A DNA stretch of 64,000 nt, from assembly GCA_023053575.1 (NCBI GenBank), contig JAKZAP010000020.1:15867998-15931997 (forward strand), written 5' to 3'. Origin of the DNA: Branchinecta lynchi (lineage: Eukaryota > Arthropoda > Branchiopoda > Anostraca > Branchinectidae). A model generated the notes under the pieces. The model did not search any database. It was not told where the DNA came from and was given only the letters and a program-made list of their open reading frames with translations. The position numbers and the translations under genes are program-made. Every line of letters starts with the position of its first letter. The first letter of the stretch is position 1. This document shows, in pieces, positions 3,617-63,094 of this stretch.

Positions 3617-4740
3617 TTTTTGGGATCCCAAAACGTAAGTGGAGGGATACCTATGACAATCGCAAAAGTTGTCCGTCTGTCCGTCCGTCCGTCTGTGTGC
3701 ACTGTAACTCTCGAAGGGAATGAGATATTTTGATGAAACTTAGTGTGAGGATTCTTTGGGTCAAGATTAAGGTCAAGTTCGTAGATGAGCTATTTAGCCC
3801 TACATTTAGGGGTGGGGGAGGGGTTTTAAATTAAGGACAAATTAAATATTTTTAAACAGATAATGTGATAGTCGATTATGAGGTAAGAAGACATGTTGAA
3901 CACGATGGTGAAAACCATTTTGTCATCGGAAAAGTAATTCGCCCGGAAACCGGCCAAAACCGGAAAGTTTGTTAAAGTAAAAATTTTATTTAAAGTTGAT
4001 TAGATGTTTGATTTAGGGGTTGGAAGCGATGCTGAACACAATGGTGAAAACCATTTTCTCGCCGAACAAGTAGTTCGCCCGGAATCCGGCCAAAACCGGA
4101 AAGTTTGTTAAACGTAAAAGTTTTATTTAGAGTTGATTAGATGTTCGATTTAGGGGTAAGAAGACATGCTGAACACTTATGTGAAAACAATTTTCAACCC
4201 AGACAAGTAGTTCGCCCAGAATCCGGCCAAAACCGAAAATTTTTAAAAGTTAGAGTTTTATTTGTAGTTGATTATATATTCGATTTAGGGGTAAAGAGAT
4301 GGTGAATCCGTGTATGGCAATCAATTTTTTACCCGGACATATAGTTCAGCGGGAATCCGGCTGGACCCGGAAAATTTGTTATAAGTTGAATTTTTATTTG
4401 AAGTTGATTAGATGCTCAGTATTGGGGAAAGAAGATACGCTGAGTTCGTTTTTGAGCTTTCTTTTTTCGACTGAAAAGTAGTTCCGAAGTTCGGCCGAAA
4501 CCGGGACATTGGCAGAAGTGGCAGGAAGTTTTCGTCAAAACAGAGATGGCTTATAGGGGTAAACACACATGCTGATTCAATACCTGAACTTGTTTTTCTC
4601 AGATGATTAACCTGTTTTTGAATTTTAATAGTAAAAATGTTCAAAGATTCTGGCGAAGACTGGATCTGGCGAAGACAAGACCCGATTGTCTGGATCAAAT
4701 ATTGAATTTTTGGGATCCCATCGAAACCTTTGGTCTTGTT
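3617..4740 (-). mobile_element. Family 2 element, copy A
   Basis: Read on the - strand it begins AACAAGACCAAAGG and ends with the palindrome TTTTGGGATCCCAAAA (3618-3633). The body is a tandem array of roughly 130-bp units carrying the words CCGGTTTTGGCCGGATTCC, GGTTTTCACCAT, TTCAGCATGTCTTC and ATCTAATCAACTTC. It is followed by AAGTTTCATCAAAATATCTC and a (GGAC/GACGGAC) stretch near 3680 about 50 bp before the palindrome. It is one of six copies in the window. Non-coding. Confidence 0.75.
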
Positions 4741-6662: not shown

Positions 6663-7745
6663 AACAAGAGCAAAGGTTTCGATGGGATCCCAAAAATTCA
6701 ATATCTGATCCAGACAACTGGGTCTTGTCTTCGCCAGATCCAGTCTTCGCCAGACTCCTTGAACGTTTATACTATTAAAATTCAGAAACAGATTAAGGCC
6801 AAATAGCTAATCATCTGAGAAAACCAAGTTCAGATATGTATTCATCATGTGTGTTTACCCCTATAAGTAGTAACTAATTGTCCGGCGAAAAAGAAAGCTC
6901 AAAAATGAACTCAGTGTATCTTCTTTCCCCAATAATTAACATCTAATCAATTTCAAAGAAAAATAACTTGTAACAAATTTTCCGACTCCAGCCGGATTCT
7001 GGTCGAACTATATGTCCGGGTAAAAAACGATTATCACACACGGATTCAGCATCTCTTCATACCCCTAATTCCGATATCTAATCAACTACAAATAAAACTT
7101 CAACTTTTAACAATTGTCCGGTTTTGGCCGGATTCCGGGCGAACTACATGTTCGGGTAGAAAATTGTTTTCACGTAAGCGTTCAGAATGTCTTCTTGCCC
7201 TCAATCGAAAATTTAATCAACTCCAAATAAAACTTTTAATTTTAACAAACTATCCGGTTTGGGCCGGATTCCGGGCGAACTACTCGTCCGTCGAAAAAAT
7301 GGTTTTCATTTTTCACACACGATGGAATGTCTTCCTACCCCTAAATCAAACATCTAATCAACTTTAAATAAAAACTTTTACTTTTAACAAACTTTCCGGT
7401 ATTTGGCCGGATTCCGGACGAACTATTTGTCCGATGACAAAATGGTTTTCACCGTCGTGTTCAGCATGTCTTCTTACTCCATAATCGACTATCACATTAG
7501 CTGTTTCAAAATATTTTGTTTGCCCCTTAATTTGAACCCCCTCCCCACCGCTAAATGTAGGGTTACAAAGCCCATCTACAAACTCGACTGGTCCGATGAC
7601 CCAACGAATTCTCACACCAAGTTTCATCAAAATATCTCATTCCCTTCGAGAGTTATCGTGCTTACAGACGGACGGACGGACGGACAGACGGACAACTTTT
7701 GCGATGTCATAGGTATCCCTCCACTTACGTTTTGGGATCCCAAAA
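6663..7745 (+). mobile_element. Family 2 element, copy B
   Basis: It starts AACAAGAGCAAAGG and ends at TTTTGGGATCCCAAAA (7731-7745). The core holds about eight diverged roughly 130-bp tandem units. A GGACGGACGGACGGACAGAC stretch is at 7672-7692. Apparent open frames (for example 7403-7804) are repeat by-products. There is no protein domain. Confidence 0.75.
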
Positions 7746-11427: not shown

Positions 11428-12203
11428 GTTAAACGCTACATAAAGTATGGTCAATTTCCAACCCGAGCTAGCGGAGGTGGAGGTTGATCAGAAGTAGTTA
11501 CCTCTACAGAGAAGGTGTAACTTCTCAGTGTAACCAAGAACAAATAAGAGCAAGAACAATAGTCTCTCGTCCATCCGCCGATCAACAATGTCCCGACAAA
11601 AATGAGCTTAGGTATAGCTAATACAGAGCCTTCTTGGACGCCCGTGTCTACTCGTTGGTCTCCGCCGTTACACACTAGAGTCATTTGCGAAGAAAACAAC
11701 GTAGCCACTATTGAGACGGATGTTCTGGCTTGTTCACACGGGAAGGAAACAGCGTTGATTTTGTTTGAGTAAACGCTCGGCGTCTGATTAGTGATGCGAA
11801 AAATAAAAGCGAACTTGACGATGGTTGTTCGTAATCGCTTTTGTTATACCATGAACAGCAATATGGACATTGAAATCCATTGTGAACTAAGAGTAGTTTA
11901 ATTAAGGCTTGCGAGGATTACTGAAATTACTGAAAAGGTAGAATAGCTTGGAACAGTCAAAATAATACCAGTAGGCGAGTGTATATTTTGTGTTTTTTCT
12001 TCTTTTTTCCCTTTTTTTCCGAAATGTATAATTGTATACATTCCGATTTAGTGACTTCGATTTCGATTCAGTAGTGAATTGAAAGACGAAAAGTTCACCT
12101 CAACATGGTCTATCTATGTCTTTTAGTCCACTACTTACAAATAATTCGATGTCAACGGCGTATTTTCCCGTCAAATAAAGTCTTTGGTTTTCGTAGATAG
12201 ACC
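11428..12203. other. No gene recognised
   Basis: It contains a short dispersed motif (CCAAGAACAAATAAGAGCAA at 11534) shared with the window start, and otherwise A/T-rich sequence up to the left end of the long-TIR transposon. Confidence 0.4.
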
Positions 12204-12629
12204 TAGTACAGTCAATCTAAATTAATTTTAGGGGTTACCTCAAACAAATTGCAAAAGTTTTGATTTTGGTATCATTCGAACCGGAAAAAAATTCTCTACA
12301 ACATATACAAAATCGGCCAAAATCGGTCGAGGCGAAATTGACATTTTTTCGTCTTTTCTTCTAAAATAACGACTTTAAAAAAAAATAACTTAGAAAACTT
12401 AAAAAGTCGGTGATAGGAAAATCTGGTACGTAGATCACGAATATGGACTCGGTTCTTTGTTTTGACCATCCCTGAGCCGTTTGCCCCCCCCCCTCCCCAC
12501 ACACACGCGCGACGTAAAGCGTGCATTAATATACGTTGGATATTACACGAAGTCGGATCCACGCAGAGAAAATGTACACTTCTTATGCCGAAATGCCAGG
12601 AAAAAGTCGTGTCCTAGTATCTTGCATAT

Positions 12630-12660
12630 TCCTGCCCCCCCCCCCCCCCCCCCCCCCACG
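12630..12660. repeat. Poly-C tract
   Basis: A run of about 25 C, with a shorter C-rich stretch at 12481-12500, lies between the left TIR and the gene. A matching G-rich stretch lies at 15240-15260. Confidence 0.9.
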
Positions 12661-12689
12661 TACACCCAATCAAATAAATGGTTTTGCAC

Positions 12690-14961
12690 ACATCTCGAAA
12701 TTGTCCTGGAAGTAATGGATGGACGAGCTTCTCTTGATCATATCTCCCAGTCTTCAAGTCTCATGAAGGTCAAAACTTCTCTGTCGGCTCTTAAATCAGC
12801 GCGAAGTCACGAGAATCGAACAAGAAAACTGTAGATCCAGTACATGGACATGGTTGCCATTCTTCGAAATTTCCTCAGAGCTGAACGTACAGGTCAATGG
12901 AATCTTCATTTGCAAACAGTTTCCGACATGCTCCCTTACCTCGCAGCAGCTGGTCACAACAACTACACGAAGTCGGCGATGCTGTACCTGCAGCAGATGA
13001 ACAGACTTGAACATACAAGCCCAACACTTTTCCAGTCTTTTGAAAAAGGCTTGCACGTTGTAAGAAGATCGGACAGATTTTGGGCCGGTTTATCTATAGA
13101 TTTGGTCATAGAACAAGAATTGATGAGAAGTCTGAAAACGGCAACCGGATTGACTAGAGGTAGAGGAATGACGGAAGTACAGAGACTTCAGTGGGTAATG
13201 GGATGTCCAGCATGTGCTCACGTTAATCTTCTGATGCAAGAACTGACGGATGTTTCGTATCACACAAGCGACCAGCACAAAGAGTCTGGTCTTTCAAGGC
13301 AGCAGAGGGACTGGAAAGACACACAAATAGTTATTGACTTTGTCGAGCAGTCGTCTCCTTTCGAGGGTGATCCGCTATCGCTTCGAAGCCTTGCTACTGG
13401 CATGACTGCTGCAGAAAACGTGAACGCCGACAAAGCAGTGGAAGTCGGGAAGAAGATTCTTGACGGAATGGTAGGGAAATCGCTGAAGGAGCATTCGTTG
13501 AAACGGAAGGATCAGGCAGTCCTTATGACGGCGAAGCAAAAAATGGAGGAGAAATCCACCGTTTAGACCCTTCATTGCTGTTTCAGCGTCTTCTAACTGT
13601 ATCCAAAAGACTGAATATGGACGAGGAATCTTAATTTAAATATGAGCTTTGCTCCTATCCTGCGTCGCTTTTTGACGATTCTGGCACGTTCCGAAAGCCA
13701 AATAAACCAGAGCTGGCAAAAGCTATCAAGCGTCTTTCAGAAATTGATACTATTGGGAAAAGCTTAGTCTGACTTGCACCTACGTCTTAGAGCTTATTGT
13801 GCTTACGGGCACTTTGCTTCACAGGATTCCCTGGGCGAAGAAAGAAACATATTCGGAGATCTTAGACCGATACTGGAACTACATTTCGGCCATATATCCA
13901 GACGCCATTATTGTCTTTGATGGCTACGACCTCGCTGCTTCGACGAAAGATATGACTCATCTAAAGCGAAACCGTGTCACTAGACGGGAAGTACTGTTTA
14001 GCCCAGAAATGAGACTGACCACCAAAAAAGAGGAATTTATTTCGTGCAAAAGAATAAAGCCCGTTTCGTCAATGTACTTTCTGATTATTTACGAGGCAAA
14101 GGTCTGAGAACCATCCAAGCTAAAGCTGATGCTGACTTGCTTATTGTGCTTACAGCGGTTGAGTGTTCGAAGACTTGGGATACTGTAGTTATCGGTGACG
14201 ATACCGACTTGTTGGTGTTGATACTTTATCATTGTAGTCCTGAGCACCACAAGGTCTACCTGCACAGTGAGCCTAATGCAACCACTTCAGGCGCAACTTG
14301 GGACATCGAAGCCATTGTTAAGAAGATTGGGACTGAAACCTGCAAACTGCTTCCTTTTGCTCACGCAATTCTTGGCTGCGACACAACTTCCCGTCTACAT
14401 GGACTTGTCAAAGGGATTGCGCTTAAACGGCTGAGAGACAACTAACAGTTTAGGGAAAATGCTTCAGCGTTTTCTCGAATTGGTGCTTCGAAAGAAGAGA
14501 TTAAAGCAGCGGGAGAGGCTGCACTTTCTATATTGTACGGCGGTAAATCTACTGACAATCTTGACAGTTTCCGGCACCGAGTCTTTCAGCAGAAAGTAGC
14601 AACGTCTACAACTTTCGTCCATCCCCAAGATCTACCTCCTACCTCAGCAGCAGCGAAATTTCACTGTTTCCGAACCTATGTTCAAGTACAAGATTGGGTC
14701 GGGCTTCAGAGCACTGCCCTTGATCCTGAGAATTGGGGATGGAAACTCCAGAACGGCATGCTGTACCCTATCCTCACGGATCTTCCAGTGGCACCAAAGA
14801 AAATTCTCACAGTCGTGAAGTGTGGTTGTAAGGGATCCTATGATAGTGACCGGTGCAGCTGTCATCGAAATGGCATCGAATGCAACATTGCTTGCAAATC
14901 TTGCAAAGGAACTAGTTGCTCTAATGCTCAGGTCCAAATCGAAGATGAAGAAGACATGTGA
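12690..14961 (+). pseudogene. Degenerate PIN/FEN-like nuclease with CXC cysteine cluster
   Basis: One ancestral coding region can be followed through three frames. An N-terminal helical region (12690-13566) includes IQYMDMVAILRNFLRAERTG, HVVRRSDRFWAGLS and GLTRGRGMTEVQRLQWVMG. Next comes LLFQRLL..KYELCSYPASLFD (13548-13740). A nuclease-like part follows with VFDGYDLAASTKD..THLKR (about 13913-13970), KADADLLIVLTA (14122), VIGDDTDLLVL (14191) and AILGCDTTSRLHG (14364). The C-terminus is Cys-rich (14821-14925, CGCKG..CSCHRNG..C..C..C). The acidic spacing resembles PIN/FEN-XPG nucleases, and the C-terminus resembles tesmin/TSO1 CXC clusters. I recall large families of uncharacterised invertebrate proteins with these motifs. 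Lesions: TAG 12832 (where the family has Trp), frameshift near 13545, TAA 13633, stop plus shift near 13767, shift near 14042, TAA 14443. The role (transposase, cargo or host-derived) is inferred, not known. Confidence 0.65.
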
Positions 14962-15845
14962 TTAATTAAATAAAATGTGATGAACCTCTAATCCCTTTGC
15001 AATTTCAAATTACCTGTGATTTTTTGTTCAGATTAAAATCAATGATTTACCTAGTTGTGAGAAGTTGCTTATTGGATTCTAAGAATTTGGGGTGGTCACG
15101 TTTAGGGTGGAGGGTAGTGGTGGGGGGTGGGGTAAATTGACGTGCACGACTTCTTCTCTGCATTAGTAGTCCAGTTTTTTTCTGTAGGGATTCATCCTCG
15201 CGTAATGTTGTTCTCAGACCTATATCGACGCTTGATTTATGGGCGGGAGGGGGGGGGGAACTGAACATGAGCGTTCAAAACAAAAACAAAGTGCATATTT
15301 GTGATCTACGTACCATATTTACCTATTACCGATTTTCTATACGTGCAAATTAAGTTGTTTTTTAAAAGTTGTCATTTTAGAAAAAAAGACGAAAAACGGT
15401 CAATTTCGCCTCGTCCGATTTTGGCCGATTTTTTATATGTTGTAGAGAATTTTTTTCCGGTTCGAATGGTACCAAAATCAAAACTTTTGCAATTTGTTTG
15501 AGGTTAAACCTTAGATTGACTGTACTAACCTTGCCATATGGGTTCTTTCAAATTCAAATTCAAATTCACTTTATTAATCCAAAAATTCTTCATTGCGAAA
15601 AATAGCATAGGAAAACGTCAACAAAATTTCACTAACGTACAAGTACATACTATACTAAAAACTTCATGCAATATACAATTTTGGTACAATTTTGGCTAAT
15701 ATTATATACAATTTGTTTCTGTTACAATAATATTCAATCATCGGGTCAAAAACTTATGACTACGTGTAGAAACAACACAATGAAATCACTATTAATAAAA
15801 CAAATATAAACTTGGTCACAACTGATAAAAATAACAACAATATAA

Positions 15846-18023
15846 TCAAACAGAGTTAAAATGGCGAATAAAATATGGCGCAAAAGATTTCAGATATCGC
15901 TCAGATGATTGAGATGGAGGGAGCTTGAGCTGGGGTCTACTAGCAAGTTTAGCCGCTCTTCTTGTTGCCCTTACGTCTTCCCGTTCTATGAAATCCGGTA
16001 GTATGTCCCTGTGATCATCGGAGTTTAGTAATTTTTTCCCGAAATTCATGACTAGTTCGTGACGTCTTTCCTTTAACGTTTGTAGTTTTAGGACTTCGAG
16101 GCTTGCCTGGTACTCGACGTACTCGTTTCCCATGATAATTTTGCAGGCACGTTTTTGTATATTTTCGATTCGGTCACTCTGATCGACAGTAAGGGCACTA
16201 TGCCAAACAGGACAAGCGTATTCGACACTTGGTCTCACATATGTTTTAAAGCATGTTAGTAGTGTGTTTCTCTTGAGGCCAAACCTTCTCAGGTACGAAA
16301 ATGACTTGAGTAAACCTGCTGCTTTGGACTCGATGCTGGCAACATGGGTACTCCATCTCAGGTCATCGTCGAAATGAACACCTAGGATTTTTACGGAGCT
16401 TGTGCACTGCAGGTAATCAGTAGGAAGGTCAGGTACGTCTTGCTTGAGGAAAGTGACACAGAAGAGGGTGCTTTTTTCTTCACTAACTGCAAGTTTTACT
16501 TCATTGGCTTCATCCTTGAGCTGTGTGAGAAGGGCCTTAACCGGTTCGACAGGGTTGTTGTCAGAGAGGAGGCGGAGCAGGGACATCGAGAGACCGTCTG
16601 CGAATTTGTACCGTGTTCTCAACTCTCGCATGAGTCTGTTTATGACCAATAAGAAGGCCAGGGGACCAATTTTGGACCCTTGAGCGGCTCCGCAGGAGAT
16701 TCCAAGAAGTTCAGAAGTGTCACTTTCCTCGAGCTGCACGCATTGCAGTCTTTCAGAGAGAAAGCTTGCCAGCATTCTGACAGCGATTTTCCGGGCTCCC
16801 ATGTCGATTGCCTCTTTGATGACAGTTTTGTGATCCAGGTAATCAAAAGCTTTTACAAAGTCGGCTATGATACAGTCAACGTACGCCCCCTGCTTTTCCA
16901 GATGTTCAAGCATATCTTGCAGAAAGCGCACAAGGTAATGTACTGTGCTGCAACCGGGTCGGAACCCATATTGTCGAGGGTCTAATTTGCTTTTAATGTC
17001 TTCGTAAAGCCATTCGTAAATAATACTTTCGAACACCTTGGAAAATGTGGAGGTTTTTGAGATGGGTCTGAGCTCACTTACTGATTTGGGTGAGGTTTTT
17101 TTTGGTATCGGGGTTATAAAAGCGGTTTTGAATCTTCTGGGAAAAACTCCTTGAAGAAGGCACTGATTTACCAGAGAAGTGAATGGTGCGGATAGCTCGG
17201 ATGAACAAAGTTTGATTACCTTTATAGAAGGTTCGCCTGGAAACGAAGCCTTGTTTTGGTCAAGTTTGGAAAATGCCTTCTTTATATCCTCAACTTCGAT
17301 CACAGGAATTTCGTCTGAGGTTGGCGTCTCGGGAAGTACGGCAAGGCCTGGGTACTTGCGGCATATTTCGGCAAAATGTAAGTTGATTGAGTCCGCTGAC
17401 AATTTTACCCCCTCGCTGTCGGTCAGTATCAGTGGTTTTCTGTTTTTGCCCATGAGTTTCTGAACCTCCCCATGAAATTTCTTCGGGTCCAGATCAGTCA
17501 GTTTTTTCTCAGTTTTTCTCCCGTGTTCGTGTCTGCATTTCTTAATTTTCCTTAGCTTTTTCGCTTTGGTCGTATCGCCACCAATATGTTTGCTGTCACG
17601 TTCTCGAATGAGTGTTTTAATTTCCTCTGATATCCATGGCTTGAGATTCGACTTTACGTATTTTGTTTTGATTTGAAAATGTTCTTCGAAGAGAGCGTTC
17701 AGCTGGTCACAAAATACGTTTGCCATCTGCTCTGCGTCACTAAGTCTGTACAGATAACTCCAGTTGTGAGACGCGAGGGTAAGTTTGAATGACTGTACGG
17801 CCAGATCACTGTAAGAACGGTAAGTGATTTTCCTTTGCTCCTGAGCGGGTAATGAGACTTTTGGTTTCCAAATTATTGTCAGATGGTCGCTCATTCCTAT
17901 CGCCGCAGTGGTTTCGGGATCACTGTAATAGTCCTGTAAAGTTGTAAAGATGAGATCAAGTGTTTTTTTCTCTCTAGTTGGGACCTTCACCACTTGGTGC
18001 AGTTGGAGCGTTTCTTCGATCCA
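15846..18023 (-). pseudogene. LINE ORF2, C-terminal part: EN end plus reverse transcriptase
   Basis: This 715-codon open stretch continues the frame of the upstream endonuclease segment after one in-frame TGA (18022-18024). It starts with the endonuclease C-terminus (VPTREKKTLDLIFT.., GMSDHLTI). The reverse transcriptase follows: FITPIPKK, LRPIS, FRPGCST, ADFVKAFDYLDH, then the catalytic box. That box reads KFADGLS where family members have F/Y-x-D-D: the second Asp codon is GGT (16593-16595), a loss of a metal-binding residue. A thumb/connection region and a basic C-terminus follow (RATRRAAKLASRPQLKLP). The coding frame is otherwise intact. It cannot be an active copy because of these two lesions. 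Confidence 0.85.
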
Positions 18024-19277
18024 TCACACCTTGATGTCGTTGAAATCACCACACAATATGATACCCGCAAGGGGATATTTACTCCGAAAGTGGTCGATGC
18101 AGAATTGTAAATAGGTGACGAGCTTTTTGCGAAATGGTCCCTTTGGTGGGTAATAGACTACTCCGACGATTAGGGATGAAACGCACTTAGGTAGAGATTT
18201 AGGTCTTGCCCATAACCATAAGACTTCTATGTCTTTGTCTCTAGGTATTGGTGATTCAAGCAGACGATTTGTTATCGTGGTGCGGCAAATGACTGCTACA
18301 CCACCACCATGGCTTACAGCAGTATTGTCATTGGTCATGCGTGGGAGGAGATAGCTGGTGTATCCATCAAACGAAAGAATATTCGAATTCACAAGCCAAG
18401 TTTCGGTGATGCATGCAATATCTACCCGATGCTGCTGGAACAGGACGTCAAGCTCTTCAATTTTGTTGGTGACAGAGCGTACATTTGAAAGAAACAGTTT
18501 TGGAAATACAATCCCTTTATCTACAGTGCCTTTAAGTTCGGACATAGTTTGCACGTCCTTCTTTCTATCTTTTCTTGCATTTTGGTTCCGTTGTGGTATA
18601 TGTCTTGGTGTAGTGTTTAACAAAGTAGTGGTAGTAGAGGTGCATATCTGTTTGTGGAGAACGGCTGGAATGGCGGGTGCGGCATCCACTGTCCCGGGTA
18701 TTGTTTTGTCTGGCGGTCTGACATTTTTTCGGGCCGTAATCCAGAGGGTGTGGTCAACTGGAACGAGAGTCTGCTCGGTGATTCGTCGGGAGTGGTACGT
18801 GGGATCTGATGCACCGGTGAGTCCTTGCGTTCTTGAGGAAGGCGGAGGTGTGTCTCTGTGGCTTTGTAGCAAGATCTGTAGAAAATTGCCTACACTTCGG
18901 TTTCCAGTGCTATCAGGCTTGCAAATCGGTTCGAGGGTACTAGTGTTGTTTGTTGACCAGCTGGAAGAGTAGCGGTGACTTTGATTGTTGGTGGTGGAAT
19001 CCAGATTTTGGGATTCCCTACAGGTAAGGTCCGTGGTAGTATTTGGACAGATGGGGAGTGGGCTGGTGGTACTGCAGACATTTGAGGAAACGGTTGGATT
19101 GCAGGGGGGTAAACTGGGAGTTTGGGAGTTCCTGTACTCGTCTTGCCACTCCTGTAGAAGATTCGCGACTTTCGTGGATTCTCTGTCTGGTGGTTTACTG
19201 TCGTTTGTACTGTAGATCGTATTTCTGGGGGATGATTGGTTTGTTGTTGGCGGTTTGAGTTTTTTGGAACGGAGCAT
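18022..19277 (-). pseudogene. LINE ORF2, N-terminal part: linker and AP-like endonuclease
   Basis: It starts at an ATG (19277) that lies inside ORF1 in the -1 frame. The first 250 or so residues are Pro/Ser/Thr-rich linker without a domain I recognise. The rest is an exonuclease-endonuclease-phosphatase fold: LFLSNVRSVTNKIEELD, ACITETWL (catalytic Glu), GGGVAVICR, and IILCGDFND (catalytic Asp/Asn). The frame ends at TGA 18022-18024 directly after GDFNDIKV, then continues open (WIEETLQ) into the RT part. Its function was nicking of target DNA for target-primed reverse transcription. Confidence 0.82.
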
Positions 19278-19552
19278 GTTGCTGTGTGGAATTTATTGCA
19301 CTTTATCGCACTGCAACTACCGAGTTCATTCTTCTCGCACTTCGCGGGATGCAAAAAACGGCATTGTTTACCTCTTTTACAACCATCGGGTTTAAGGTGG
19401 AAAAAGCAGACGGCTGTTCTGTTAGCAGGGTGAATGAAACGGCAATTGTCACCATTTCGGCAGTGACCCTTAGCGAAGTAACGGCAACTTTCTGGCTGGA
19501 GAATCGGGGTAGAGATTTGGACCTGCAGGGAGGCTGACGAAGCCTCCCACAC
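18890..19552 (-). CDS. LINE ORF1 with three CCCH zinc fingers
   Basis: A 220-codon frame, open further upstream into the neighbouring repeat. Three CCCH fingers occupy about residues 23-95: C-x7-C-x5-C-x3-H (CRYFAKGHCRNGDNCRFIH), C-x8-C-x5-C-x3-H (CFFHLKPDGCKRGKQCRFLH) and C-x7-C-x4-C-x3-H (CEKNELGSCSAIKCNKFH). A Pro/Thr/Ser-rich tail follows. CCCH fingers usually bind RNA, so an RNA-binding role for the retrotransposon particle is likely. The last 388 bp overlap ORF2 in the -1 frame. A canonical slippery heptamer A-AAA-AAC lies in zero frame at 19259-19265. The true start is missing because of 5' truncation. Confidence 0.75.
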   Translation of the reverse strand: MWEASSASLQVQISTPILQPESCRYFAKGHCRNGDNCRFIHPANRTAVCFFHLKPDGCKRGKQCRFLHPAKCEKNELGSCSAIKCNKFHTATCSVPKNSNRQQQTNHPPEIRSTVQTTVNHQTENPRKSRIFYRSGKTSTGTPKLPVYPPAIQPFPQMSAVPPAHSPSVQILPRTLPVGNPKIWIPPPTIKVTATLPAGQQTTLVPSNRFASLIALETEV

Positions 19553-20879
19553 TATGGGAGGAGTTGGTGAGGGGGAGGGGGTCTGGATTTCTGATTATCC
19601 GGGAGTTCGGTACTTCCAGATGTACTAGGACGATGCAACTGGGCTGGCACATCAGGGACTTGAACAAACTGACTTAACAATAATCGTATGGATGATTCGA
19701 TCATCATGGAGGGAGTGGAGGGATGGGGTGTCCGGAATCTTGAGGTTTTATAACTCTTGAACGGTTGATCGGATCTTAATGAAACTTGGTATTTGGAAAG
19801 ACCCCGTGTCTCAGACGATTCAAATACAATCCGGACCGGATCTGGTGACTTCGGGGGGAGTTTGAGAGGGGAACCGGAAATCATGGGAAACGCCTGGAGT
19901 GGAGGGGTCAAGATGAAACTTGGTGGGAAGAGCAAGCACAATTCCTAGATACACCATTGAAATAATAACAGGACCGGATTCGGACACTATGGGGGAGTTT
20001 CGGGGGGGGGGGGGGGGGGGGGGTCCGGATTTCTGATTTTCCGTGAGTTCGGTACTTCCTGATGTACTAGGGCGATGCAACTGGGCTGGCTATCATGGAC
20101 TAAAACAAACTGACCTGGCAATAGCAATCTGCATGATCCGATCATCGTGCAGGAGTGGAGGGATTGGGAATCTGGAATCTTGTGGCATTCATAATTGTCA
20201 AACGGGAGATCGGATTTGAATTAAACTTGGCAAGTAGAAAGAGGTGTCGTCTCAGATGTTCCATGTCAAGCCAAGACCGGATCTGATACGTGTTGGGGGG
20301 GGGGGGGGGGGGGTGAAGAGGGACGCCGGAGTATTCGTGAAAAATGCCTAGCGCCGACGGATCGGGATGGAATTTGGGGGGAAGAACAAAGCTGTAAATA
20401 GATTCTTGATAGAACTTTATCATATCGGTGCTTTTTAGGGTGAGTCAGAGGGGTTTTCCGGGAATTTCGGTGATCGCAAGCTAGGGTACTTCTAGATATG
20501 CTAAGGACAATGAAACTAGGCAGGCATATTAGCGACCAGACTAAATAGAATTAAAGACCTGAATTTCTGTTCCTGGATCCGGCCATTTTGGGGGAAGAGG
20601 GAGAATCCAGAAATTACTGAACGGGTGGTCCGATTCGAGTGAAACCTTATGGGTGATAAGAACTAACGAGATAAATATGCAAAATATGTCTCCGAACCAC
20701 ATGCGGCATTGGCTGCGGTAGCTGAAGAGGGGGGGGGGGGTGAACTTTGTGAAATGGTCAAAAACCAAACGAATGGGCCGACTGGGATGCAAGTTGGACA
20801 GTACCGAGTTTCTGCTGCCTAGTGTGTTATTTGGCGTCCGGACTGGATCCGGCAACAGTTAAGGATTAGGATCAGGCAG

Positions 20880-34131: not shown

Positions 34132-34689
34132 AGGCCCATTCACAACGGGTTTTTAGCTAATACTCGGTACCAGCCAGTTCTGGAAATCGCTCCGAGACCG
34201 AGAATTAGCTGGGTTTCTGCCGTTCACAGTTGATATTGGTGTCAGTTTCGGGTACCAGCTAGTCTCGCACCCAAGTTGAAATCAGTTCAAATTTTCAGGG
34301 TACTAGCCGATCACATTACTTAGGGGAATACTCAGGAATATTCCGATTGGCTAATGCTGAACCATGTCAGACCGAAAAACAATGACCTAATCCCTTTTTT
34401 TTTCAAGATAGCAAAGAGTGGATGTGATTTTATCTATTGGGCTTGGTTCGAAACTGGTTCGAAACTAGCCAATCAGAATATTCCTCAATATTCCCCAAAA
34501 TAATCTGATTGTTTAATACCGTCAAAAGTTGAACTGATTTCAACTTAGGTGCGAGACTTGCTGGTACCCAGAACTGGCACCTATATCAATTGCGAATGGC
34601 AAAAGCCCAGCTAATTCTCAGTCTCAGAGCGATTTCCAGAACTGGCTGGTACCGATTATTATTAGCTAAAACCCGTTGTGAATGGACCT
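34132..34689. mobile_element. Harbinger-like MITE, long inverted arms, TTA TSD
   Basis: Ends AGGCCCATTCACAACGGGT and ACCCGTTGTGAATGGACCT are inverse. Arms of roughly 200 bp (CTCGGTACCAGCCAGTTCTG, AATTAGCTGGGTTT, GGTGCGAGAC inverse) frame a short middle. TTA flanks both ends (34129-34131, 34690-34692). Non-coding, 558 bp. Confidence 0.72.
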
Positions 34690-44954: not shown

Positions 44955-46357
44955 ACAGAAAAATATACTATTGGTCTCTACAGAATTTTGCAGGCTTTTT
45001 CTGGGTACAGGATGTCCTTAAAACAAGAAATTGCTCGTTACAAGATAGAGTTCTAAATTTGAAGGCTTTGATTGAAAAATATGGGAAGGGAAAAGACAGG
45101 CTGTTTGTGGCGTTTTTAGACTTAAAAAAAGCGTTCGATAGTGTAGATAGACTACTTTTGGGAAAAGTATTGATAGAAATAGGACTACCGATGGTGTTTC
45201 TTAAACTAATTGTAAGTATATATAGCTCTTACTAAGGGGGTGGTAAAAATAGTAGGGGGAGGATTCTCAAGAGTTTTTAGAAGTAAGAAAGGATTGAGAC
45301 AGGGTTGTACGCTTTCTCCGAGGTTATTCGGGATTTTTATTAATGATATGGTTGAGTTTCTAGAGAAGAGAAGGGCCCCGTCGTTATCTTTAGGTGGGAT
45401 ACCCTTATCAGTACTGCTTTTTCGCTGATGACACTGCGCTTGTTGCGAAATCGGAATTTGACCTTCAAGTTCTATTAAATCTGGTGGACGAGTATTTGAA
45501 TCTAAAGAAATTAAGTTTAAACGTTAAGAAAACAGAAGTTGTAGTTTTTAATACAGGAAGATATAGTGGGAAGATGGATCCACCAAAGTTTTACTTCAAA
45601 GGACTAGAATTGAAAATTAGCTCTCAGTTCAAATATTTGGGATTTATGGTAATGGAAAATGGAAGTTGGAAGGCTCACCTTAAAGAAATGGTGATCAGGG
45701 GAGAAGCTGCATCAGCAGCTATATTCAGAAATTCTACATTAATGGGTATAAAAAATTTGAAAATGCACAAGCATGTTTTTATGTCTATGGTTTTACCAAT
45801 TATCCATTACGGGGCAGAAATATGGGGACATGAATCAGCAACGCAGCTCGAGTCTATTCAGCTGCAGTATTACAAAAGATTATTTGGGTTACATCCTACA
45901 ACCCACACTCAGGCGATGAAGGGAGACCTAGGAATTTTTTCTTTAAGACGGCATAGGGTAGCTCAAACTATTAGATTCTGGCAGAAAATAATTGCTTTGC
46001 CAGATGATAGGCTTGCGAAGGCAGCTTATTTGGAAATTTTAAGTGCAGGGAAAATAAAATCATGGCCATTCCAAGTCAAATCCATACTTGATGAGGTTGG
46101 ACTTTCGTGTATTTGGAATGCTGGACTGGGCCCTCCTGATCAATTTCCAGGTTTCATATATGAAGTACTGAGAGTTATTGAAGACCAGGAAACACATAAA
46201 TGGCTTGGAATTATTTCTTCATCGGATACACTTAGAAGTTATACTATGGTGAAGACAGTTTATGAACCAGAATTTTATTTTAAGCTTAATCTACCCGCGA
46301 TTTATTTTCGGTACTGGATCCAACTGAGGGCAAATTGCCTACCACTCCACGGTAGAA
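44955..46357 (+). pseudogene. LINE reverse transcriptase, degenerate
   Basis: RT motifs appear in order across frames: LQDRVLNLKALIEK and VAFLDLKKAFDSVDR (first catalytic Asp) up to a stop at 45233; then, shifted, SKKGLRQGCTLSPRLFGIFI (45285-45345); then, after a second shift near 45400, FFADDTALVAKS with an intact catalytic Asp pair (45421), LNVKKTEVVVF, FKYLGFMV and a long thumb/connection region to RANCLPLHGR, where family 2 interrupts. Two frameshifts and the insertion make it a pseudogene. The endonuclease part is missing. I place it only as a non-LTR RT, of the group with a C-terminal Cys/His cluster. Confidence 0.82.
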
Positions 46358-47594
46358 AACAAGACCAAAGGTTTCGATGGGATCCCAAAAATTCAATATC
46401 TGATCCAGACAACTGGATCTTGTATTAGCCAGATCCAGTCTTCGCCAGACTCCTTGAACATTTTTACAATTAAAATTCAGAAACAGAATTAAGGCCAAAT
46501 AGCTAATCACCTGAGAAAACCAAGTTCAGATTTGGATTCAGCATGTGTGTTTACCCCTATAAGTCATATCTGTTTTGACGAAAACTTCCTGCCACTTCTG
46601 CCGATTTCCCGGTACCGGCCGAAATCAGGGTATCTTCTTTCCCCAGTAGTGAACATCTAATCAACTTCAAAAAGAAATTTAGCTTATAACAAATTTTCCG
46701 ATTCCAGCCGGATTCCGGTCGAACTATATGTCCGGGTAAAATATGATTGTCATACAGTGACTCAGCATCTCTTCTTACCCCTAAATCGGTTATCTAATCA
46801 ACGAGAAATAAAACTTTGACTTCCAACAGATTTCCGGTTTTGGCCGGATTCCGGACGAACTACATGTCCGGGTAGAAAATTGTTTTCACATAAGTGTTCA
46901 GCATGTCTTCTTGCCCTAAATCGAACATCTAATCAACTCCAAATAAAACTTTTACTTTCAACAAACTTTCCGGTTTGGGCCGGATTCCGGTCGAAATACT
47001 TGTCGGTCGAGAAAATAGTTTTCACCATCGTCTTCAGCATGTCTTCCTACCTCTAAATCAAACATCTAATCAACTTCAAATAAAACTTTTACTTTCAACA
47101 AACTTTCCGGTTTGGGCCGGATTCCGGGCGAAATACTTGTCCGTCGAGAAAATAGTTTTCACCATCGTCTTCAGCATGTCTTCCTACCTCTAAATCGAAC
47201 ATCTAATCAACTTCAAATAAAACTTTTACTTTCAACAAACTTTCCGGTTTTGGTCGGATTCCGGGCGAACTACTTGTCTGATGACAAAATAGTTTTCACC
47301 ATCGTGTTCAGCATGTCTTCTTACCCCATAATCGACTATCACATTAGCTGTTTCAAAATATTTTGTTTGTCCCTTAATTTGAATCCCCTCTCCCACCCCT
47401 AAACGTAGAGCTACAAAGCCCATCTACGAACTTGACTGGTCCGACGACCCAACGAACCCTCATACCAAGTTTCATCAAAATATCTCGTTATCTTCGAGAG
47501 TTATCGTGCTTACAGACGGACGGACGGACGGACAGACGGACAACTTTTGCGATGTCATAGGTATCCCTCCACTTACGTTTTGGAATCCCAAAAA
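46358..47594 (+). mobile_element. Family 2 element, copy C (inside the LINE)
   Basis: It starts AACAAGACCAAAGG after LINE codons LPLHGR and ends TTTTGGAATCCCAAAA before LINE sequence FDRNKKSPDGK. This gives the best boundary evidence for family 2. Two adjacent 135-bp units (46955-47090, 47090-47225) are nearly identical, showing recent unit amplification. GGACGGACGGACGGACAGAC is at 47516-47535. Confidence 0.8.
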
Positions 47595-51117: not shown

Positions 51118-52370
51118 AACAAGATCAAAGGTTTCGATGGGATCCCAAAAATTCAATATTTGATCCAGACAATTGGGTCTTGTCTTCGCCAGATCCAGTC
51201 TTCGCCAGACTCCTTGAACATTTTTACTATTAAAATTCAAAAGCAGGTTAATCATCTAAGAAAAACAAGTTCAGGTATTGAATCAGCATGTGTGTTTACC
51301 CCTATAATCCATCCCTGTTTTGACGAAAACTTCCTGCCACATCTGCCAATTTCCCGGTTTCGGCCGAATTCCGGAACTACTTTTCCGGCGAAAAAAGAAA
51401 GCTCAAGAACGAACTCAGCGTATCTTCTTTCCCCAATATTGAACATCTAATCAACTTCAAATAAAAATTCAACTTATAACAAATTTTCCGGCTCCAGCCG
51501 GAATCCCGTATGTTCGGGTAAAAAACGATTGTCATACACGGATTCACCATCTCTTTACCCCTAAATCGAATATCTAATCAACTACAAATAAAACTCTAAC
51601 TTTTAACAATTTTCGGTTTTGGCCGAATTCCGTTCGAACTACTTGTCTGGGTAGAAAATTGTTTTCACATAAGTGTTCAGCATGTCTTATTACCCCTAAA
51701 TCGAACATCTAAGCAACTCCAAATAAAACTTTTACTTTTAACAAACTATCCGGTTTTGGCCGGATTCCGGGCGAACTACTTGTTCGGCGAGAAAATGGTT
51801 TTCACCATTGTGTTCAGCATGGCTTCCTACCCCTAAGTCGAACATCTAATCAACTTCAAATAAGACTTTTACTTTCAACAGACTTTCCGGTTTTGGCCGG
51901 ATTCTGGGCTAACTACTTGTCCGGCGATAAAACGGTTTTCACCATCGTGTTTAGCATGTCTTCTTACCCTTTCATCGAACATCCAATCAACTTCCAATAA
52001 AACTTTTACTTTTAACAAACTTTCCGGTTTTGGCCGGATTCCGGGCTAACTACTTTTCAGATGACAAAATGGTTTTCACCATCGTGTTCAATATGTCTTC
52101 TTACCTCATAATCGACTATCACATTATCTGTTTAAATATATTTAATTTGCCCCTTAATCTAAAACCCCTCCCCCACTCCTAAATGTAGGGCTAAATAGCC
52201 CATCTACAAACTTGACCTTACCCTTGACCCAAAGAATCCTCACACCAAGTTTCATCAAAATATCTCATTCCCTTCCAGAGTTACAGTGCGCACAGACGGA
52301 CGGACGGACAGACGGACAACTTTTGCGATGTCATAGGTATCCCTCCACTTAGGTTTTGGGATCCCAAAAA
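51118..52370 (+). mobile_element. Family 2 element, copy D
   Basis: It starts AACAAGATCAAAGG and ends TTTTGGGATCCCAAAA at 52354-52369. About eight tandem units, with the GACGGACGGACGGACAGACG stretch at 52298. The right neighbour AGAGGCACGACAG is a foldback word, so it inserted within the arm of the host element. Confidence 0.8.
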
Positions 52371-62013: not shown

Positions 62014-63094
62014 GTGATCCCAAAACGTAAGTGGAGGATACCTATGACTTCGCAAAAGTTGTCCGTCTGTCCGTCCGTCTGTTAGCACGTTAACTCTCGA
62101 AGGGAATGAGATATGTTGATGAAACTTGGTGTGAAGATTCTTTGGGACAATTGTCAGGTCAAGTTCGTAGATGGGCTTTGTAGCCCTACATTTAGGGGTG
62201 GGGGTTCAGATTAAGGGAGAAAAAAATATTTTTAAACATCTAATGTGATAGTCGATTATGGGGTAAAAAGACATGCCTAGCACGATGGTGAAAACTTTCC
62301 TTGCCGGACAAGTAGTTCGTCCAGAATCCTTCAAAAACCGGATAGTTGGTTAAAAGTAAAAGTCTTACTTGAAGTTTATTAGATATTTGATTAGGGGGTA
62401 AGAAGACATGCTGAACACGATGATGAAAACTATTTTCTCGTCGGACAATTCATTCGTCCGGAATCCGGCAAAAACCGGAAAGTTGGTTAAAATTAAAAGT
62501 TTTATTTGAAGTTGTTAGCTGACAGATTAAGAAGACAAGACTTATATGAAAAGTATTTTCTACCCGGAAAAATAGTTCGCCCGGAATCCGGCCAAAACCG
62601 GAAAATTCGTTAAAAGCAAAACTTTCATCTGAAGTTGATTAGATGACAGATTTATGGCTAAGGGGACGCTGAGTCTGTATATGACAACCACTTTTCACCC
62701 GGACATATAATTCGTTCGGAGTCCGGTTGAAACCGGAAATTTTTTTGTAATTTAAAGTATTTGAAGTTCATTAGATGTCCTTTATCTACTTCAAACTGGA
62801 TAACCGTATAAGGATATACGCTGAATTCGTTTCTGAGTTTTCTTTCTTTTCTGGACAAGTAGTTCACTCGGAATCCGGCCGAAACCGGAAATTTGGCAGA
62901 AGTAAAGCAGGAAGTCTCGGTCAGTATCGTCAGAATAGATATGTCTGATAGAGGTATATCTGAAATTGGTTTTCTCAGACGATTAGCCTGGCGAATACTG
63001 GATCTGGCGAATACTGGATCTGGCGAAGACAAGACCCAGTTGTCTGGATCAGATACTAGATTTTTGGGATCCCATCCAAACATTAGGTCTTGTT
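62014..63094 (-). mobile_element. Family 2 element, copy F
   Basis: Read on the - strand it begins AACAAGACCTAATG and ends TTTTGGGATCACAA (the terminal palindrome has decayed). GACGGACGGACAGACGGACA lies at 62062-62084 (inverse). Core units carry CCGGTTTTTGCCGGATTCC and TTCAGCATGTCTTC. It has more point changes than copies A-D. Confidence 0.7.

Follow-up and report, generated by a model that had tools for sequence, protein, structure and literature searches.

AcademX, the nuclease-bearing lineage of the Academ cut-and-paste DNA transposons, encodes a nuclease of the XPG type. Academ as a whole is counted among the DDD/E transposase superfamilies in excerpts of PMC9587614, and excerpts of PMC10045372 give duplications of 3 or 4 bp for AcademX and of 9 or 10 bp for AcademH, a difference tied to the nuclease of the one and the helicase of the other (Kojima 2020 and Kapitonov & Jurka 2010, as cited in parts of PMC10045372 and PMC4455052). 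Among molluscs, according to part of PMC10294476, Academ is almost confined to bivalves, and the bivalve consensus elements have a mean length of 5565 bp. Here we describe an element at 12204–15527 of a 64,000-nucleotide stretch (the window) of Branchinecta lynchi contig JAKZAP010000020.1. We read it, with a probability of about 0.84, as a non-autonomous copy, decayed and with an internal deletion, of an Academ-type transposon of the AcademX lineage, a kind of transposon already known from many animals.

Between 12718 and 14958 the element encloses a decayed gene in four frame pieces; read through, they give 739 residues, and they contain four in-frame stops (12832, 13632, 13770 and 14443). 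Its parts and flanks are as follows.

12201–12203, no strand: left copy of the putative target site duplication, ACC, read from the letters of a single element copy
12204–12497, forward strand: left terminal inverted repeat (TIR), starting TAGTACAGTCAATCTAA, defined by pairing with the right arm
12498–12708, forward strand: C-run stretch at the expected place of the gene's first half, the probable site of the deletion junction
12709–13539, forward strand: decayed C-terminal portion of the predicted DDE domain and linker, placed by tblastn of P0001 residues 411–685, alignment and a residue check
13545–13772, forward strand: second frame piece, the linker reaching the XPG-like domain
13784–14038, forward strand: third frame piece, the start of the XPG/FEN-like nuclease, with VFDGY
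14047–14958, forward strand: fourth frame piece, the remaining XPG-like nuclease (DADLL, GDDTDLL, GCDTTS) and the C-terminal CXC cysteine cluster
15245–15527, reverse strand: right TIR, with the reverse complement of TAGTACAGTCAATCTAA at its end, 15527
15528–15530, no strand: right copy of the putative target site duplication, ACC, read from the letters

An earlier note on this DNA had listed acidic nuclease motifs and a CXC cluster, and all of them were located at 13913–14919: VFDGY (13913–13927), DADLL (14128–14142), GDDTDLL (14194–14214), GCDTTS (14374–14391) and the cysteine cluster (14821–14919). In this copy the family's first conserved Asp of the nuclease is substituted (third frame piece), as is one conserved cysteine of the CXC cluster. 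DLVIEQ (13099–13116) retains the final acidic residue of the presumed DDE triad. A Pfam scan of the four pieces gave a single match, at E 0.7. The assignment of the nuclease to the PIN/FEN class agrees with structure prediction, in which residues 740–1078 of protein P0001 adopt an EXO1/FEN1/XPG-like fold at 12–17% identity in structural alignments.

A protein search with the gene returned 462 relatives at E ≤ 0.001, in keeping with the numerous invertebrate proteins mentioned in the earlier note. The best 120 of the 462 are 40–51% identical, and their named sources include a sponge, corals, sea anemones, a sea cucumber, a sea spider, mussels and other molluscs, and one fish. Because several relatives are much longer than the window gene, the first half was searched for with residues 1–780 of protein P0024; this gave 403 proteins, with lengths of up to 1599 residues among the best 120. 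The gene search and the first-half search together yielded 236 retrieved proteins, 93 of which are at least 1350 residues long. DNVD- and TFDQ-type motifs are present in the first half of all 93, and the first-half model has an RNase H-like transposase fold with a helical insertion. A profile of the first-half alignment gave nothing meaningful against solved structures (two matches, E 0.43 and 1.6), and a Foldseek search with the first-half model found nothing at E ≤ 0.001 among viral structures. The earlier view that no DDE transposase belongs to this system is not confirmed: the half that the long relatives have and this copy lacks holds a domain predicted to be of DDE type, and DLVIEQ survives in the window copy.

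In the modelled architecture, the intact protein of about 1,480 residues would comprise an N-terminal cysteine-rich region, a winged helix, an RNase H-like DDE domain, an XPG/FEN/EXO1-like nuclease and a CXC cluster, with the nuclease most likely an accessory domain fused to the DDE transposase. The proposal that the PIN-CXC protein is the mobilising enzyme probably stands for the protein family, and very probably does not for the nuclease as sole enzyme.

All 93 long relatives (median length 1483 residues) match the element, the match starting at residue 748 (median; range 630–845). When their first 760 residues were searched against the window, matches fell at 12616–13110, adjoining or overlapping the gene start; elsewhere in the window none of the 93 first-half queries matched at E below 0.005, the remaining matches lying at E ≥ 0.008. 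About 745 codons (~2.2 kb) of the gene's first half are therefore absent from this copy, and the earlier picture of a gene whole apart from decay is not confirmed. No other part of the window was found to encode these residues. With them restored, an intact element would measure about 5.6 kb, from the present 3.3 kb and the ~2.2 kb missing. C-rich tracts lie at 12482–12510 and 12633–12660, between the left TIR and the gene and near the probable deletion junction.

The ends and flanks support the earlier identification of a long-TIR DNA transposon. The inverted ends fall exactly at 12204 and 15527, as first described, and the arms are longer than the ~230 bp given for them. They are identical at 247 of 273 aligned bases over 304 alignment columns, with a local score of 349 against at most 40 in first-order Markov shuffles (n=1000). 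Among 5000 random pairs of stretches with the same spacing in the window, 53 score at least 60 and two (366 and 351) exceed the TIR score; the best 15 all begin at 3912–4148, the site of another inverted repeat family. The window is repeat-rich, and long inverted pairs in it are not confined to the element. The precise match of the ends with ACC at either side is the expected trace of insertion. The flanks of this one copy agree over 3 bp only (left AGATAGACC, right ACCTTGCC), and ACC, already suspected of marking a 3-bp duplication, is plausibly just that.

Searches of the window gave no additional copy of the ends or of the gene. An exact scan of viral contigs with the 17-bp end matched one contig. 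Scans for relatives gave 71 pattern matches in viral contigs and 11 in genome contigs, none confirmed in either set, and tblastn of protein P0121 against phages and plasmids gave no match; none of these searches placed a relative in its DNA context.

Other repeats surround the element. A non-long-terminal-repeat retrotransposon (15849–19591, reverse strand), whose frames encode a CCCH zinc finger, an endonuclease and a reverse transcriptase, has its 3′ side near the element's right ACC; it matches 112 proteins, the closest 56% identical. Another reverse transcriptase fragment lies at 45394–46428 (forward strand), and a fold-back element at 34158–34661 has 226-nt inverted arms that are 82% complementary around a 52-nt spacer. 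A dispersed repeat with arrays, its units mostly 136–137 bp, occurs in both orientations at 3882–4443, 6941–7474, 46651–47325, 51555–52105 and 62247–62652, the loci being up to 95% alike in stretches. A big family of related repeats with G runs occupies 19.6–32.7 kb, 40.7–41.2 kb and 54.9–55.9 kb, with copies often spaced ~420–570 bp apart. Rfam at gathering thresholds gave no match in the whole window.

These features suggest how such an element might move. The N-terminal DNA-binding regions would recognise the TIRs, and the DDE domain would cut and join the ends with a 3-bp stagger, leaving the ACC flanks, while the XPG-like domain may trim flaps or end structures. Loss of the ~745 codons would have removed the first two catalytic Asp residues of the presumed triad, so that any movement after the deletion could come only from an intact copy elsewhere. 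The frameshifts and stops would have arisen with decay.

The element is probably a new member of Academ, as judged by printed descriptions. It has the XPG-type nuclease, a predicted DDD/E transposase by way of the DDE half recovered from relatives, and ACC on each side, in one copy, where a duplication of 3–4 bp is expected. Weighing against this filing, limpet, periwinkle and dog whelk relatives (P0118, P0200, P0178 and P0109) do not fit the almost bivalve-only distribution in print; the named relatives cover bivalves and gastropods, and only a minority of the matches carry names. A literature search on the Academ nuclease, AcademX and AcademH found no paper whose entry describes the Academ protein itself.

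An unlikely rival is that the DDE, XPG and CXC group forms a separate, unnamed superfamily resembling AcademX. The likeness to Academ comes from printed descriptions, the named gastropod matches sit badly with the near-restriction to bivalves given by PMC10294476, and Pfam offers no named model for the family except a weak DUF6589, for which a literature search, alone or with transposition, found no paper. Yet the nuclease, the DDD/E transposase, the putative 3-bp duplication and the expected length all match Academ and AcademX as printed in the excerpted sources. A further reading, just as unlikely, sets the DDE-XPG-CXC transposases, which are widespread in marine invertebrates, apart from Repbase Academ as a superfamily in which one polypeptide combines a transposase like that of the P element with a flap nuclease, the two jointly shaping the transposon ends. 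Capture of a host or cargo gene between the TIRs of an unrelated element is very improbable and was rejected. In its favour, the association of TIRs and gene was observed only once; against it, the gene itself corresponds to the C-terminal portion of a predicted transposase, and several named species have more than one diverged relative (for example, Mytilus edulis with 6 and Nymphon striatum with 3 of the listed names). Least credible is the undescribed superfamily with the PIN/FEN-CXC nuclease as sole enzyme, to which the nuclease half and DDE domain tail displayed by this copy lend some colour, and which we rejected because the predicted DDE half exists in the long relatives, with its transposase-fold motifs in 93 of 93; moreover, a nuclease-encoding lineage with 3–4 bp duplications is already in print as AcademX (PMC10045372, in part).

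An internal deletion can thus make an ordinary transposon resemble a transposase-free mobile nuclease. Here the attached repair-type nuclease alone was noticed because the presumed cut-and-paste part of the enzyme is missing. Many invertebrate database proteins labelled 'Tesmin/TSO1-like CXC domain' or 'uncharacterized', of which some match DUF6589 weakly, most likely belong to such DDE-XPG-CXC transposases. The models place a winged helix, a P-element-like DDE domain, an EXO1-like nuclease and a CXC cluster along the protein, and with this map one can test what the nuclease does in transposition.

The transposases of the P element, hAT (Hermes) and RAG1/Transib share the predicted RNase H-like fold with a helical insertion; they are not known to carry an XPG-like or CXC domain. 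P elements duplicate 8 bp, whereas the flanks here agree over 3 bp only. EXO1/FEN1/XPG nucleases have the fold and the order of acidic motifs in common with the nuclease, at 12–17% identity, which here is joined to a transposase. AcademH belongs to the same superfamily in the excerpted literature, and differs in having a helicase instead of the nuclease and duplications of 9 or 10 bp. From AcademX the present copy differs in being decayed and without the protein's first half, and its gastropod relatives fall outside the distribution given in part of PMC10294476. It resembles AcademX, as described in excerpt, in combining a transposase with a nuclease, in its TIRs, in a putative 3-bp duplication within the printed 3–4 bp and in an expected length of ~5.6 kb.
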